DNA from: an uncultured Bacteroidales bacterium
GTDB taxonomy: Bacteria > Bacteroidota > Bacteroidia > Bacteroidales > Muribaculaceae
Direction of reading: 5' to 3'
DNA length: 47,019 bases
Assembly (NCBI GenBank): GCA_902800715.1
Contig: CADCFN010000019.1
Coordinates: 1 to 47,019 of the forward strand
Shown here: positions 14,148 through 47,019 of the stretch, piece after piece
How positions within the stretch are numbered: position 1 is the first letter of the stretch
Layout of the letters: each line of letters opens with the position of its first letter
Made by a program: the position numbers and the translations under genes
The notes under the pieces: model-generated
Told to the model about the DNA's origin: nothing
Database searches by the model: none
What the model saw: only the letters and a program-made list of their open reading frames with translations

Positions 14148-14696
14148 ATGAAAAGAATATTTATATCGATGCTTATAGTGTGTGCTTCATGGGTTGCAGG
14201 CGTGGCGCAACTATCATACTCGGTGCAACTCTTGACGAGCGAGAATGGTTATGTCATGAGTGACCGAATGTGGGCAAGCGAGGGCGAGACCGTCACCCTC
14301 ACCTTAGTCCCTGACCCCTATTATGCCATGTGCCAGTTGGGTGTTCAAAGTGAGATTATGGGTGAAGGTTTTTCGGATGACGAACCCTGGGGACCTGCTA
14401 TGGTGCCCTCCTACATCATGGTTCCTACTACCAAGGTCAGTGAGAACATTTACACCTTTGTCATGCCAGCCAGCAAAGTCAAGGTCATGGCCGATTTTGC
14501 TCCGGTCTTGATGGGTGATGTGGACAATAATGGTGACGTGAATATCACAGACGTGACCGTCCTGATCGACTACCTGCTCACTGGTAATGCCTCGGGCATT
14601 AATCTGACAGCTGCCGATTGCAATAAGGACGGCTATGTCAGCATCGGCGACGTGACCACCTTGATTGACTATCTGCTGAACGGCAGTTGGGAGTAG
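14148..14696 (+). CDS. Small secreted protein with InlB-repeat-like domain and C-terminal dockerin
   Basis: This encodes 182 aa. A signal peptide (to about residue 20) is followed by a domain at about 24-119 ending ENIYTFVMPASKVKVMADFA, the pattern of divergent InlB B-repeat/Flg_new_2 modules. Residues 123-182 form a type I dockerin: GDVDNNGDVNITDVTVLIDY then LLTG, and CNKDGYVSIGDVTTLIDYLL. Both halves show the calcium-loop Dx(D/N)xDG-like pattern and the F-helix hydrophobics. Dockerins bind cohesin modules, so this is probably a small module or adaptor that docks to a cohesin-bearing partner. It ends the probable AraC-hydrolase-BspA operon. No enzyme domain is present. Confidence 0.88.
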   Translation: MKRIFISMLIVCASWVAGVAQLSYSVQLLTSENGYVMSDRMWASEGETVTLTLVPDPYYAMCQLGVQSEIMGEGFSDDEPWGPAMVPSYIMVPTTKVSENIYTFVMPASKVKVMADFAPVLMGDVDNNGDVNITDVTVLIDYLLTGNASGINLTAADCNKDGYVSIGDVTTLIDYLLNGSWE

Positions 14697-18435: not shown

Positions 18436-19545
18436 TTAATTACCGTTCAGAATCAGATCAACCAGGTCGGTCGCGTCGCTGATGTTCACGCTTCCATCCT
18501 GATTGACGTCAGCTGATTTGTCGTTGATGTCATCGCCATTGAGGAGCAGGTCGATGAGCGTGGTGACATCGCTGATGGCGATTTTGCCGTCACCATCCAC
18601 ATCACCGATGATGTCTTCGGCCAGTTCAAATGTCACAGTCGCCTGTCCGCTTCCCAGTGCCTCGGCTAGTCCCGTGGGGTCGTTGATGGCGCCAATGCGG
18701 GTATAGGCGTAGCTGGTTTCAAAAGTATCGTAGAACAAGACCAGGCAATTTCGACCATAGAGCATGATATCGCCAGCATGAATCATATCAGGAACGGCCT
18801 CATCGACAGTCAAATTGTTACTCATGTAGTAGTATTTCTCGTTACCATTGAGCTCAGCCATATTGAAAGTGAGCGGCAACAGTTCCCTGAACTCCTCGGC
18901 TGTGTAATTGTCGGCAAGCGTGGCAGGGAAAACCTTATCGCCCACGATGACGCGCATCTTGTTGGTCTTGGGAAGTTCAAAATCAAGCGTGTTGAGCCAT
19001 TCGACAGCCATCTCGGGGATATCGTCACGGTGTTGATAGTTAATGTGGAGGGTGGTACCGATAAAGGAACTGTTCGGCAGGGTGTTGTGTGCATCGGTAA
19101 CCACGCCATTGGGACCACTGCTCCAGCTGGTCACTGCCAGGGCAACCTGCTTGTGATTGAGTTTATCTGCATGGTTGTGCAGGAAGGTGAGCATCGGGTT
19201 AGCCATTTTTCCGTTCCACAGCGGGGTGCAGATGATAATGGCGTCCCAGGCGTCAAAACTCTCTACGCTCGTTTTGATTTCGGGCCAATTTCCGGCATTG
19301 ATTTGGCTGCGCTCATTGTTGGCGTAGTTGTATGTGGTCTGGCTCTCAGGACGTGGATAGTTGCCATGGTCCTCGACCTGGAGCAGCGTTCCACCACAAT
19401 TATCGGCAATTTCCTGGGCAAGTTCCTCAGTCACGCCACTATAGGTGTAATACACAACCAGCGTACGCATCTCGGAAGCTGTAGCAGCCTTACATGTTGC
19501 ACACATCAACATCAATAATACAAACAAAAAGAATGATTTTCTCAT
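18436..19545 (-). CDS. Secreted flavodoxin / cyclophilin-like / dockerin fusion protein
   Basis: This encodes 369 aa. Signal peptide about 1-21. Residues 27-187 are a flavodoxin-like domain: TLVVYYTYSGVTEELAQEIA is the FMN phosphate loop, TPLWNGKMANPMLTFL lies after the central strand, and TSWSSGPNG is a late loop. Residues about 196-308 match the cyclophilin-like domain often fused or adjacent to such flavodoxins in Bacteroidales (MRVIVGDKVFPATLADNYTA, then EEFRELLPLTF). Residues 312-369 form a type I dockerin (GDVDGDGKIAISDVTTLIDL and DVNQDGSVNISDATDLVDLI). Exported flavodoxins are unusual because FMN is normally loaded in the cytoplasm. The dockerin suggests attachment to a cohesin-bearing scaffold. 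It is a single gene with its own -7 box at 19591-19598. Confidence 0.88.
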   Translation of the reverse strand: MRKSFFLFVLLMLMCATCKAATASEMRTLVVYYTYSGVTEELAQEIADNCGGTLLQVEDHGNYPRPESQTTYNYANNERSQINAGNWPEIKTSVESFDAWDAIIICTPLWNGKMANPMLTFLHNHADKLNHKQVALAVTSWSSGPNGVVTDAHNTLPNSSFIGTTLHINYQHRDDIPEMAVEWLNTLDFELPKTNKMRVIVGDKVFPATLADNYTAEEFRELLPLTFNMAELNGNEKYYYMSNNLTVDEAVPDMIHAGDIMLYGRNCLVLFYDTFETSYAYTRIGAINDPTGLAEALGSGQATVTFELAEDIIGDVDGDGKIAISDVTTLIDLLLNGDDINDKSADVNQDGSVNISDATDLVDLILNGN

Positions 19546-41840: not shown

Positions 41841-43760
41841 ATGAAGAAATTTTTATTTACTCTTGCTGCTGTCCTGATGGCAGGTAGCCTGTACGCCGGC
41901 GAGTATTTCGTTTGCGAGGACTATCAGATCGCTCAGGATCAGATTGGCAAAAATGTCAACATCGACATTAAGGCTCACTTCGACGCCTATGTTAGTGCAT
42001 GGATGTCTGAGTTCTTCCTGCCCGAGAACGTAACTCTGGTTGGCGTGAAGAAGGGTGCAGACATGAACCTGACCTTCCTGGATGAGTTCGGCGATGAGAC
42101 CACTGTTGCTCCCGACATCACCCGTCAGGGCACCAAGCTGATTGTTGCCGTTATGGTAGCTCAGTATTCTGAGGATGGCGAAATGTACGGTGTTGCCAAG
42201 TGGGCTCCCGGCGACTATGACCAGATGATGATTCTGGTTGTTAAGGCCAATGAGCAGTTCCAGGGCGGCGAAATCAAGATCGTCTCCGACTTCTCTTGCG
42301 GTCAGGACAGCCGTCCCGAGATCAACGAGAACCGTTCCAGCGAGCGTGGTGCTGAGGGTATCTCCCAGCTCACCGTTGAGGGTGCAACCCCCGTGCTCCA
42401 GGATCTGAGCGGTGAAATCGTTATCGGTTCTCCCACCGACGAGGGTAAGGTTTCTATCACCTACACTGGTGATGAGGACGTAACCATCCTGGTTGTTGTT
42501 AACGGCGTTGAGACTCCGATCGATGAGGATGGCAACATCACCATCAACGAGGGTCGCAGCATCATCGTTGTTACCGTTGAGGCCGAGGGCTTCAATCCCA
42601 AGTCGCTCACTGGCGAGATCGAGTGGGTTAAGCCCGTCGTTCCCGAGAAGACCGAGAAGCCCGTTATCACCTGGGAAGAGGTTGAAGGTGGTGTTCAGGT
42701 TACCGCTACCGGTGACGGCCACATCTGCCTCTACGTTGAGGACGAACTCGTAGCTGAGGGTGAAGGCACCGCTACCTACTTCATTGCAAGCACTGAGCTT
42801 GAGGAAGAGTATGGTGTAAGCGCTACCGCTAAGGAGGAAGGCAAGGAAATCAGCGATCCCGCTGTTGAGACCGTTTGGGTTCCCGGCATCGGCACTCCCG
42901 AGCCCGAGAAGACTCCCAATCCCGTCATCAACTACGATGATGAGACCTTCACTGTTGACGTTACTGGTAACGGTACCATCCACGTTTATGTTGATGGTGA
43001 GGAAGTAACCAACCCCTACACCTTCGAGCAGGGTGAGGAAGATGTAACCTACGTTATCACCGCTACCGCTCAGGAGGATGGCAAGGAGATCAGCGAAACC
43101 GTTGAGCTCATCGTTGTAGTTCCTGGCACTGGCGAGCCCGGTCCTCAGCCTCAGGAAGGCTTTGTACTGATTCTCATCGACCAGTTCGGCAACGAGGTTC
43201 CCTATCCTCTGAATGAGGGTGTTGATGGTGACCACACCACCACCGTTACCTTGAAGTACTATCCTTGGGGTGAGTTCTACTGGGATCCCGCTCTGACCGA
43301 CGAGCAGAACGAGGCTAACCGTCCCAACGTGCCCTTCTACTTCCTGATCAATGGCGAGCGCTACGGTGCTGACATTGAGATGCGCGAGACCGTTCTCGGT
43401 TATGCTATGGAGAACCCCCTGTTCTTGGGCGCTGAGGACAACTACTGCGTTCCCGTAGGCTTCTCCTACACTCTGGGTGTTGCCTTCAAGGATGGTGACT
43501 ACTATGTATACGCAGCTATCTCCAAGGCTACCGGTGTTGACGAGCTCAACGCTGAGAAGGCCGTTGCTGGCGTACGCTACTTCAACATGGCAGGTCAGGA
43601 GATGCAGGAGGCTAACGGCATGACCATCGTCGTTACCACCTACACCGACGGTACCACCAGCCATCCACCTTTAGCAGGTGAAAAAATGAGGCGGTCCCCA
43701 CTCGTGGGACCGCCTTTTTTTTGCCTTTTTTTTTTAAAAAAGTCATTTTTTTTTGATTAA
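41841..43760 (+). CDS. Secreted modular protein, array copy 1, with abnormal 3' end
   Basis: This encodes 639 aa in the open frame. Signal peptide MKKFLFTLAAVLMAGSLYA. Residues 20 to about 165 form a cohesin-like beta domain (NVNIDIKAHFDAYVSAWMSE, then FFLPENVTLVGVKKGADM; AKWAPGDYDQMMILVVKA; SDFSCGQDSRPEINENRSS). About 190-270 is a beta module; two Ig-like modules follow (GGVQVTATGDGHICLYVEDE; TVDVTGNGTIHVYVDGEEV), then a C-terminal domain with YYPWGEFYWDP and VRYFNMAGQEMQEANGMTIV then VTTYTDGTTS. The last residues, HPPLAGEKMRRSP and a Phe-rich end, read through the terminator at 43689-43722 and are not a natural tail. Codon use is extremely biased, as in highly expressed genes. Probably an abundant surface protein; function unknown. 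Confidence 0.82.
   Translation: MKKFLFTLAAVLMAGSLYAGEYFVCEDYQIAQDQIGKNVNIDIKAHFDAYVSAWMSEFFLPENVTLVGVKKGADMNLTFLDEFGDETTVAPDITRQGTKLIVAVMVAQYSEDGEMYGVAKWAPGDYDQMMILVVKANEQFQGGEIKIVSDFSCGQDSRPEINENRSSERGAEGISQLTVEGATPVLQDLSGEIVIGSPTDEGKVSITYTGDEDVTILVVVNGVETPIDEDGNITINEGRSIIVVTVEAEGFNPKSLTGEIEWVKPVVPEKTEKPVITWEEVEGGVQVTATGDGHICLYVEDELVAEGEGTATYFIASTELEEEYGVSATAKEEGKEISDPAVETVWVPGIGTPEPEKTPNPVINYDDETFTVDVTGNGTIHVYVDGEEVTNPYTFEQGEEDVTYVITATAQEDGKEISETVELIVVVPGTGEPGPQPQEGFVLILIDQFGNEVPYPLNEGVDGDHTTTVTLKYYPWGEFYWDPALTDEQNEANRPNVPFYFLINGERYGADIEMRETVLGYAMENPLFLGAEDNYCVPVGFSYTLGVAFKDGDYYVYAAISKATGVDELNAEKAVAGVRYFNMAGQEMQEANGMTIVVTTYTDGTTSHPPLAGEKMRRSPLVGPPFFCLFFLKKSFFFD
43458..43661 (+). repeat. 204-nt near-identical 3' block, copy in array gene 1
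   Basis: This block differs from 45835-46038 at only two positions, far closer than the rest of the two genes. Similarity ends abruptly after the AGC codon at 43659-43661. It encodes the segment from GFSYTLGVA to TYTDGTTS. Confidence 0.9.
43689..43722 (+). terminator. Intrinsic terminator inside the end of array gene 1
   Basis: AGGCGGTCCC pairs with GGGACCGCCT, followed by eight T. The in-frame stop codon of array gene 1 (43758-43760) lies beyond it, so transcripts ending here would lack a stop codon. Confidence 0.9.
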
Positions 43761-43763
43761 TGA

Positions 43764-43794
43764 TTGGTTATTTAAAAAAGATGTTGTAATTTTG
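43764..43794 (+). promoter_or_regulatory. Promoter of the second modular protein gene
   Basis: TTG at 43764-43766, a 20-bp spacer and TAATTTTG at 43787-43794 match the consensus. The leader is about 120 nt. Confidence 0.75.
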
Positions 43795-43830
43795 TGGTCG
43801 TATCGGGTGAAGTGCCTTCTAAACAATAGG

Positions 43831-43881
43831 ATGAACATGGAGTCCCGTATGATGAGATTAAGTTTATTTATTTGTGTTTAG
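43831..43881 (+). CDS. Candidate 16-aa leader ORF upstream of the second modular protein
   Basis: ATG at 43831 to TAG at 43879-43881 in the leader, encoding MNMESRMMRLSLFICV. It is in the same relative place as the leader ORFs of the other array genes but is not alike in sequence. Support is weak. Confidence 0.25.
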   Translation: MNMESRMMRLSLFICV

Positions 43882-43920
43882 TTACATATTTTTATTTAAC
43901 CTAATTCTTTTGTGTTTATT

Positions 43921-46110
43921 ATGAAGAAATTTTTATTTACTCTTGCAGCTATCCTGATGGCTGGTAGCATGTGTGCTGGCGAGTATTTCGTTTGCCAGGA
44001 CTTTGAGATCCCCCAGGACAAGATTGGCAAAAATGTTAACATCGACGTGAAGGCTCACTTCGACGCCTATGTTAGTGCATGGTTGACTGAGATCTTCCTG
44101 CCCGAGAACGTATCTCTGGTTGGTGTGAAGAAGGGTGCTGACATGACCCTGACCTTCCTGGATGAGTTCGGTGATGAGACCAGCATTGCTCCCGACATCA
44201 CCCGTCAGGGCACCAAGCTGATCGTTGCTGTTATGGCTGCTCAGTATTCTGAGGATGGCGAGATGTACGGTGTTGCCAAGTGGGCTCCCGGCGACTACGA
44301 CCAGATGATGATCATGGTTGTTAAGTGCACCGAGGAGTTCCAGGGCGGCGAGGTTAAGCTCGTTACCGACTTCTCTTGCGGTCAGGACACTCGTCCCGAG
44401 ATCAACGAGAACCGTTCCAGCCAGCGCGCTGGTGAGGGTATCTCTCAGCTCACCGTCGAGGGTGCTGGCCCCGTTGAGCCCGAGGTAACCGAGAAGCCCG
44501 AAATCACCTGGGAAGAGGTTGAAGGTGGTGTTCAGGTAACCGCTACCGGTAACGGCCACATCTGCCTCTACGTTGAGGACATCCTCGTTGCTGAGGGTGA
44601 GGGCACCGCTACCTACTTCATCGAGAGCACTGAGCTCGAGGAAGAGTATGGTGTAAGCGCTACCGCTCAGGAGGAAGGCAAGGAAGTCAGCGAGTACGCT
44701 GTTGAGACCGTTTACGTTCCTGGTCTGCCCGTTGTTCCCGAGGTAACCGCTACCCCGGAGATTAAGTACGAGGTTAACGAGGAAGAGCAGTATGTTGACA
44801 TCTGGGCCGAGGGTGAAGGCACCATCAAGCTGTACATTGACGGCTTTGAGGTTGCTAACCACTTCCACTATGCATTCCAGGATGAGGAGGATGTAGTTGT
44901 TGTAACTGCAACCGCTCAGGAGGAAGGCAAGGAGATCAGTGAGGTTGCTGAGATGGAGATCACCATCCCCGCTAAGCCCGTTGTTCCCCAGCCCGAGGTA
45001 ACCGCTACCCCGACCATCACCGTTGACGAGAACTACAACCTGATCGTTGAAGGTGAGGGTGAGATCCACGTTTATGTTGACGGTGAGGAAGTTGAGCTGC
45101 CCTACACCTTCGAGCAGGCTGAGGAGGACGTAACCTACGTCATCACCGCTACCGCTCAGGAGGAAGGCAAGGAGATCAGTGAGGTTGCTCGCTATGAGGT
45201 AACCATCCCTGGCACCGGCATCATTCCCGAGGAGCCCTACGAGACCCCCGCTCCCGTGGTAACCGTTGAGGAGACCGAGGACGCTGTTGTTGTAACCGCT
45301 ACCGGTGAGGGCGTCATCAACATCTACGTTAAGGAGATGAACCGTGACGAGGAGCCCATCGTTAACGAGCCCGTTGCTACTGGCGAGGGTGAGGCTACCT
45401 ACAGCATCATGAAGGGTGAAGAGGCTAAGATCTTTGCCGTTTGGGCTACCGCTCAGCGCGACGAGGAGGCTCTCGTTGGTATCAGCGAGACCCAGTACGT
45501 TGACGTTCCCGCTCTGGAGCCCGTTACTCCCGAGGAGGGCTATCAGCTGATTCTCATCGACCAGGATGGTAACGAGGTTCCCTACGAGCTCAACGAGGGC
45601 ACCGATGGTGACTACACCACCACCGTAACTCTGCACTACTATCCTTGGGGTGAGTTCTACTGGGATCCCATGCTGACCGACGAGGAGAACGAGGCTAACC
45701 GTCCCAACGTGAACTTCTACTTCATGATCAACGGCAAGCGCTACGGTGCTGAGGAGCTGACCGAGACCGTTCTTGGTTATGCAATGCAGAACCCGCTGAC
45801 CGAGGGTGCTGAGGACTACTACTGCGTACCTGTTGGCTTCTCCTACACTCTGGGTGTTGCCTACAAGGATGGTGACTACTATGTATACGCAGCTATCTCC
45901 AAGGCTACCGGTGTTGACGAGCTCAACGCTGAGAAGGCTGTTGCTGGCGTACGCTACTTCAACATGGCAGGTCAGGAGATGCAGGAGGCTAACGGCATGA
46001 CCATCGTCGTTACCACCTACACCGACGGTACCACCAGCTCGCCTTTTTTTATTAGTGTCCAGGAAAAACACGATAAAACCCCCATAAGCAGTAGAGTAAC
46101 AAAGTCATAA
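43921..46110 (+). CDS. Secreted modular protein, array copy 2
   Basis: This encodes 729 aa from the ATG at 43921, chosen because the first 25 bases match copies 1 and 3. Signal peptide MKKFLFTLAAILMAGSMCA. The cohesin-like domain (20 to about 180) is very close to copy 1. Four Ig-like modules follow, separated by Pro/Val linkers (GGVQVTATGNGHICLYVEDI; YVDIWAEGEGTIKLYIDGFE; NLIVEGEGEIHVYVDGEEVE; AVVVTATGEGVINIYVKEMN), each ending with ATAQEEGKE-like strands; copy 1 has fewer. The C-terminal domain is shared with copy 1. The tail after GTTS (SPFFISVQEKHDKTPISSRV then TKS) is unrelated to copy 1 and does not look native. No terminator hairpin was seen after it. Probably an abundant surface or secreted protein; function unknown. 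Confidence 0.85.
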   Translation: MKKFLFTLAAILMAGSMCAGEYFVCQDFEIPQDKIGKNVNIDVKAHFDAYVSAWLTEIFLPENVSLVGVKKGADMTLTFLDEFGDETSIAPDITRQGTKLIVAVMAAQYSEDGEMYGVAKWAPGDYDQMMIMVVKCTEEFQGGEVKLVTDFSCGQDTRPEINENRSSQRAGEGISQLTVEGAGPVEPEVTEKPEITWEEVEGGVQVTATGNGHICLYVEDILVAEGEGTATYFIESTELEEEYGVSATAQEEGKEVSEYAVETVYVPGLPVVPEVTATPEIKYEVNEEEQYVDIWAEGEGTIKLYIDGFEVANHFHYAFQDEEDVVVVTATAQEEGKEISEVAEMEITIPAKPVVPQPEVTATPTITVDENYNLIVEGEGEIHVYVDGEEVELPYTFEQAEEDVTYVITATAQEEGKEISEVARYEVTIPGTGIIPEEPYETPAPVVTVEETEDAVVVTATGEGVINIYVKEMNRDEEPIVNEPVATGEGEATYSIMKGEEAKIFAVWATAQRDEEALVGISETQYVDVPALEPVTPEEGYQLILIDQDGNEVPYELNEGTDGDYTTTVTLHYYPWGEFYWDPMLTDEENEANRPNVNFYFMINGKRYGAEELTETVLGYAMQNPLTEGAEDYYCVPVGFSYTLGVAYKDGDYYVYAAISKATGVDELNAEKAVAGVRYFNMAGQEMQEANGMTIVVTTYTDGTTSSPFFISVQEKHDKTPISSRVTKS
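45835..46038 (+). repeat. 204-nt near-identical 3' block, copy in array gene 2
   Basis: Partner of 43458-43661, with two differences. Similarity stops after AGC at 46036-46038, the same codon as in gene 1. Confidence 0.9.
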
Positions 46111-46966: not shown

Positions 46967-47019
46967 ATGAAGAAATTTTTATTTACACTTGCAGCCCTGC
47001 TGATGGCAGGTAGTGCTTT
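46967..47019 (+). CDS. Secreted modular protein, array copy 3, cut by the window edge
   Basis: Only the first 17 codons and part of the next are visible (MKKFLFTLAALLMAGSA). They encode a signal peptide almost identical at base level to copies 1 and 2, after a promoter and long leader like those of copy 1. It is taken as a third paralogue of the array; everything after the signal peptide is outside the window. Confidence 0.75.
   Translation, partial: MKKFLFTLAALLMAGSA

Follow-up and report, generated by a model that had tools for sequence, protein, structure and literature searches.

The window analysed here is contig C19 in its entirety (47,019 bases), one of 27 contigs in an 88.9% complete, 3.3-Mb genome of an uncultured Bacteroidales bacterium that probably came from the rumen. 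Two complete genes and the first part of a third form a tandem array that runs into the contig end. Both complete reading frames that an earlier note had described for this DNA were recovered, together with the strings it quoted, FFLPENVTLVGVKKGA and APGDYDQMMILVVKANE. Their products, array proteins A and B, have a signal peptide, an N-terminal domain (NTD), a stalk of Ig-like repeats and a conserved tail, and two genes elsewhere in the window encode dockerin proteins. The features are as follows, with IgA and IgB as labels of this analysis.

14514..14678, + strand: C-terminal type I dockerin of a 182-aa protein (14148-14696); PF00404, E 1.6e-12, 47.9 bits (cut-off 22.9)
18466..18606, - strand: C-terminal type I dockerin of the protein at 18436-19545; PF00404, E 4.2e-8, 33.7 bits (cut-off 22.9)
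41841..43760, + strand: array protein A (639 aa), with signal peptide, NTD, Ig-like stalk repeats and surface-type tail; codons beyond 43661 are doubtful
41898..42386, + strand: NTD of A, a divergent and very probably cohesin-related domain (hhalign to lineage cohesins; whole-genome family-profile matches)
42402..43127, + strand: stalk of A, three Ig-like repeats in the order IgB, IgA, IgA (HMMs built from family members)
43146..43661, + strand: C-terminal region of A with the conserved tail VAGVRYFNMAGQEM...TTYTDGTTS (tail matches elsewhere in the genome)
43912..46110, + strand: array protein B, with signal peptide, NTD, four IgA repeats and tail; codons beyond 46038 are doubtful
43978..44466, + strand: NTD of B (85% identity to the NTD of A; cohesin-profile match in its own genome)
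44494..45513, + strand: stalk of B, four Ig-like repeats (HMMs built from family members)
45520..46038, + strand: C-terminal region of B with tail (tail matches)
46967..47019, + strand: first part of a third array copy (MKKFLFTLAALLMAGSA), cut by the contig end (sequence)

The NTDs of A and B are 85% identical over 163 residues, and the stalk repeats of A gave nothing above a Pfam cut-off. Gene B opens with GTG at 43912, and its start is likely the in-frame ATG at 43921, which fits an MKKFLFTL signal peptide. The array genes have an Nc of 31-33, the lowest among the genes measured, against 36-58 for other window genes, dockerin genes and cohesin genes, and this codon bias suggests that the array proteins are probably very abundant. 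The closest named relative found is the uncultured Bacteroidales bacterium RUG12435, a metagenome-assembled genome whose locus (L035) is the only one contributed by the contig scan; judged by eye from reading frames, this array and the genes upstream of it recur on the RUG12435 contig. Relatives of the NTD were not found in phages (query, the window NTD), plasmids (query, the NTD of locus L010) or viral contigs.

The 3' ends of A and B need to be read with the assembly in mind. Both genes (A at 43644-43700, B at 46021-46110) lose a terminal ...AVKVMK-stop directly past the same 18-mer (...TYTDGTTS). Since this ending is kept in L035 and in contig C11 of the same genome (C11:194226-194433), and since A is without 27 nt that L035 has past ...TYTDGTTS and B diverges at that very point, a repeat assembly error is likely in both 3' ends. 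The possibility that the odd ends are real biology was rejected after comparison with L035 and C11. The end of C11, which contains a stretch of Ns and a 3' end that is repeated, may mark the other side of the array.

The claim that two window proteins end in type I dockerins held, with both over the PF00404 cut-off. The one described in the earlier note as a flavodoxin does carry flavodoxin and dockerin domains, but a cyclophilin-like domain is present as well; this protein (18436-19545, - strand) has a signal-peptide-like start and would be unusual cargo. The two window dockerin proteins are not special, because Dockerin_1 matches in the genome number at least 154 at E<=1, some of which share a protein, from the 150 of 241 first-look candidates that were scored. 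As two among so many, they lend no direct support to the pairing with the array proteins that the earlier note put forward. Of the 154 matches, 20 were sampled by taking every fourth entry among the 77 at the head of the list ordered by E-value, and 17 of the 20 end within 8 residues of the C-terminus. Other domains in the 20 sampled proteins were LRR or DUF285 (five proteins), peptidases (three), glycosidases (two), and a phosphoesterase, an endonuclease, a beta-helix, CHB_HEX_C_1 and CarboxypepD_reg (one each), and nothing was recognised in five. Dockerins at E<=1e-4 occur in all 37 genomes of the genus, with at least 16 in each and highest counts of at least about 87, while 18 of 24 genomes from other families had no dockerin and one had more than one, among the matches listed.

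Is the NTD a cohesin? No Pfam match at E<=10 was obtained for the NTD of A, the NTD of B gave one sub-threshold match (HalD, E 0.2), and the Cohesin model (PF00963) matched none of 26 NTDs at E<=1. Profiles were compared on both sides. The NTD alignment comprised 26 sequences, leaving out fragments (L008, L031, L032), a duplicate (L024) and the frame-broken L035, and the cohesin alignment comprised 19 segments over the PF00963 cut-off in 61 genomes, 14 of them of the genus and 5 from other families, with L054 dropped as a near copy of L045. The cohesin alignment picks up cohesins of solved structure: its best PDB match had an E-value of 4.7e-10, and the 23 distinct sequences matched at E<=0.01 were named as cohesin, scaffoldin or anchoring protein (19), endoglucanase (2) or NagJ (2). 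With hhalign, NTD against cohesins gave 96.9% (score 65, 108 columns), against 0.3% with either side reversed, at most 0.67% (score 15) over 30 column shuffles, and 0.4-1.8% for stalk-repeat and tail alignments of the same proteins, which are shallow controls of 6, 5 and 8 sequences. The two window NTDs alone reached 21.6% against the 19 cohesins. The value is 96.9% against all 19 but drops to 8.5% when the comparison is limited to the five that lie outside the genus, so the link between NTD and cohesins runs through the cohesins of the lineage.

Searches of whole genomes point the same way. Over its own genome, the cohesin profile found three cohesins at E<=4.1e-15, followed by the NTD of B (E 0.19), the NTD on contig C18 (E 0.27) and an unrelated place on C3 (E 0.52), and the NTD profile found three NTDs, then two of the three cohesins (E 0.009 and 0.36), and nothing else. 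A single-sequence BLAST between NTD and the stand-alone cohesin of contig C1 was weak (E 0.039). Over the 61 genomes the NTD profile matched weakly at 58 places (E roughly 1e-6 to 0.01), of which 13 overlap PF00963 matches, with about 0.01 expected, and 35 overlap lineage cohesins among the matches listed, with about 0.02 expected; by either list 37 fall on cohesins and 21, among the matches listed, on neither. The domain middle is the least alignable part of the NTD-cohesin alignment. The NTD profile against PDB was not significant, with 1exg (glycanase) best at E 0.18 and the cohesin 2xdh at E 0.33; we take 1exg to be the CBM2 module of a glycanase. With regard to the nine-stranded jelly roll of cohesins, AlphaFold models had a low pLDDT, 38.3 for the window NTDs plus the L035 fragment (only three sequences) and 43.1 for the two window NTDs (only two). 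The cohesin-like character that the earlier note saw in the NTD is thus upheld as remote homology, by profile-profile comparison with controls, by near-reciprocal next-best matches and by NTDs that stand beside cohesin and dockerin in one protein, but no Pfam cut-off was reached, and the profile-profile result is strong against the 19 cohesins and not against the five from outside the genus or against PDB. From these sequence comparisons, we consider the NTD to be very probably a divergent member of the cohesin superfamily by common descent.

A single-sequence search placed the NTD family in 15 of the 61 genomes, and every one of these belongs to the window's genus, which accounts for 37 of the 61. 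A clear NTD is absent from the other 22 genomes of the genus, all of them dockerin-bearing and many incomplete. Counted by hand as distinct proteins with overlapping loci merged, 41 NTD proteins fall into 16 with NTD, stalk and tail (one of which, on the contig matching RUG12435, is frame-broken in the assembly), 20 with NTD and dockerin(s) (including L031, whose NTD is partial), three with the order NTD-cohesin-dockerin-cohesin, and two cut by contig ends. A dockerin was seen in none of the 16 NTD-stalk-tail proteins, and 23 of the 41 proteins have both NTD and dockerin. Most NTD-dockerin proteins are small and have no stalk (16 of 20 are about 240-320 aa); locus L023 (G019:C40) has a 580-residue frame with the order NTD-dockerin-NTD-dockerin. 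In the three NTD-cohesin-dockerin-cohesin proteins, Pfam Cohesin is over its cut-off in two and below it in the third (17.6 vs 24.1 bits).

Cohesins of a more conventional kind are also present in this lineage. The window's own genome had no PF00963 match at E<=10 and has three lineage-type cohesins, more conventional than the NTD. Among the 37 genomes of the genus, PF00963 at E<=0.1 matched in 26, and a lineage cohesin profile at E<=1e-4 matched in 36, among the matches listed; 14 of those 36 supplied a row of the profile and match by construction, and 22 of the remaining 23 genomes match. Since the lineage profile finds cohesins in 36 genomes against 26 for PF00963, Pfam misses part of the cohesins of the lineage. 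Several individual proteins stand out. A secreted 175-residue frame (L056, C1:142984-143319) consists of little beyond one lineage-type cohesin and is, by eye, intermediate between NTD and cohesin. Tandem cohesins, among the matches listed, mark candidate scaffoldins in G039:C25:211554-221552 (seven in a 2467-aa and four in a 1239-aa frame), and in G011:C1:272980-275406 and G030:C3:72888-75329 (four each, in 918- and 921-aa frames).

What might such a domain do on the array proteins? The reading we favour, at about even odds, is that the NTD is a surface-anchored, stalked, divergent cohesin that captures type I dockerin proteins; the domain family (supported by profiles), the architectures and the genome content are what the data show, and the secretion route, the surface position and the binding are what we infer. 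Type IX secretion would export the array proteins and, by way of their tails, hold them at the outer surface. The genome encodes SprA_N, part of the type IX translocon (E 4e-180), and has 30 places that match the array tail at E<=0.01, with no Pfam or NCBIfam sorting-domain model matching the tail at E<=1. One of the tail matches, on contig C4, lies in a protein that also has a dockerin, a lineage cohesin and repeats that are LRR-like by eye. The stalk of Ig-like repeats would hold the NTD away from the cell, where it would most likely capture proteins that end in type I dockerins, such as LRR proteins, proteases, a nuclease and a few glycosidases, and the small NTD-dockerin proteins would serve as one-to-one adaptors. 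In addition to the surface tail, the dockerin would then serve as a second address label at the C-terminus, and the architectures fit such a pair of labels. Dockerin binding by the NTD is itself a prediction to which we give close to even weight, if anything slightly less. The array proteins each have a single NTD and no CBM match, unlike a scaffoldin with several cohesins and a substrate-binding module.

Capture of dockerin proteins is favoured by descent, by architecture, by genome content, by the codon bias of the array genes and by the greater number of dockerin candidates in NTD-bearing genomes. NTD-positive genomes had a median of 241 first-look dockerin candidates against 159.5 in NTD-negative genomes (p 1e-4), or 78 against 59 per Mb (p 0.005), a comparison in which genome size (3.2 vs 2.8 Mb, p 0.002) and kinship are confounders. 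Counting against it are the absence of a clear NTD from 22 of the 37 genomes, the three cohesins of a more ordinary kind in the window's genome, which could be the real dockerin receptors, the dockerins of the NTD-dockerin proteins, cargo-like by eye, and a domain middle too poorly alignable for a dockerin-binding face to be traced. The NTD as sole dockerin receptor was rejected, given those 22 dockerin-bearing genomes.

An alternative explanation, serious even if we place it somewhat short of even, is that the NTD inherited the cohesin fold and does not bind dockerins, being instead a glycan-binding or adhesive payload attached via tail or dockerin, as other secreted proteins with either label would be, with the lineage cohesins as the receptors. 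By eye, the dockerins of NTD-dockerin proteins resemble those of the sampled cargo, in which case the NTD may be one payload among others, and 23 of the 41 NTD proteins carry a dockerin. The lineage cohesins also have the wider distribution (36 of 37 genomes, among the matches listed, with three in the window's own genome, while 22 of the 37 are dockerin-bearing without a clear NTD), and the best, if non-significant, PDB match of the NTD is 1exg, ahead of a cohesin. Yet NTD, cohesin and dockerin are combined in three proteins, and adaptor scaffoldins, too, normally consist of a cohesin fused to a dockerin. It is improbable, in our estimation, that the array proteins serve a structural role or antigenic variation, with the NTD used in self-assembly or variation and capturing nothing else: tandem copies, NTDs 85% identical, stalks of varying length and the strongest codon bias measured would suit such a role, but the NTD occurs as well in stalkless small dockerin proteins (16 of 20 about 240-320 aa). 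Still less credible, to the point of being very improbable, is that the likeness to cohesins reflects a convergent beta-sandwich composition. The NTD lies below Pfam detection, its PDB search is not significant, its match to cohesins from outside the genus is weak and its AlphaFold pLDDT is low; against this, no signal comes from reversed or shuffled alignments or from repeats of the same proteins, and weak genome-wide NTD matches land on cohesins far above chance.

If the NTD does capture dockerins, it would be tempting to combine the parts into a general surface-display system of this Bacteroidales genus, in which a Pfam-invisible new type of cohesin, present in high copy on stalked, tail-anchored proteins, acts together with NTD-dockerin adaptors and divergent lineage cohesins on well over 100 dockerin-tagged proteins. 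The sampled cargo features LRR proteins and proteases, among others, instead of cellulases, and the dockerin would be the second address label next to the type IX tail. We put this joint proposal forward tentatively and regard it, taken as a whole, as somewhat less likely than not.

Dockerin-rich bacteria have many dockerins whose partners are so far mostly unrecognised. In a rumen gene catalogue study, metagenome-assembled genomes of Bacteroidetes carry dockerins and no recognisable cohesin, and the role of the dockerins is called unclear, with either no true cellulosome or cohesins too divergent to see as the options (PMC7260996). PMC7480376 likewise gives the role of dockerins in polysaccharide utilization loci of rumen Bacteroidetes as not defined, and PMC5831590 reports neither dockerins nor cohesins in its genome. 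A camel-rumen study describes cohesins in certain Bacteroidetes and Firmicutes, with bin 136 (called Bacteroidetes) both among the dockerin-rich bins and among those with 2-4 tandem cohesins (PMC6071333). Given that report, the mere finding of a cohesin in rumen Bacteroidetes is no novelty. What differs from these reports is a Pfam-invisible NTD on stalked array proteins and a genus-wide count of lineage cohesins. Among titles and the beginnings of abstracts, a scope outside which most subscription papers lie, a Bacteroidales cohesin family like the NTD was not found described. Lineage cohesins that Pfam misses bear on the puzzle of dockerins without cohesins, as stated in PMC7260996, and together with the Pfam-invisible NTD on probably very abundant surface proteins they provide a short list of testable pairs for the dockerin question.

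Compared with the PF00963 cohesins of clostridial and ruminococcal scaffoldins, the NTD shows profile homology via the cohesins of its own genus, stands beside dockerins in one protein, and shares the pattern of the first half, with a G-x(3)-hydrophobic strand ending P-V followed by a strand ending P-x-G-L. In contrast to them, it is about 30 residues longer in its middle, where a Y-G-x-x-K-W-x-x-G-x-Y region specific to the family lies, and it has no Pfam match over cut-off. The array proteins resemble the ScaE and OlpA type, the single-cohesin anchoring scaffoldins of Gram-positives, in placing one cohesin-like domain on a probably surface-anchored carrier, and differ in belonging to a Bacteroidales outer membrane, in a probable type IX tail rather than sortase or SLH anchoring, in tandem genes and in an Ig-like stalk. 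The NTD is also like 2xdh ('COHESIN') and NagJ, which we take to be non-cellulosomal cohesins, in being a single cohesin outside cellulosomes. Unlike for those two, a dedicated system is plausible here, given a genome in which dockerin matches number at least 154.
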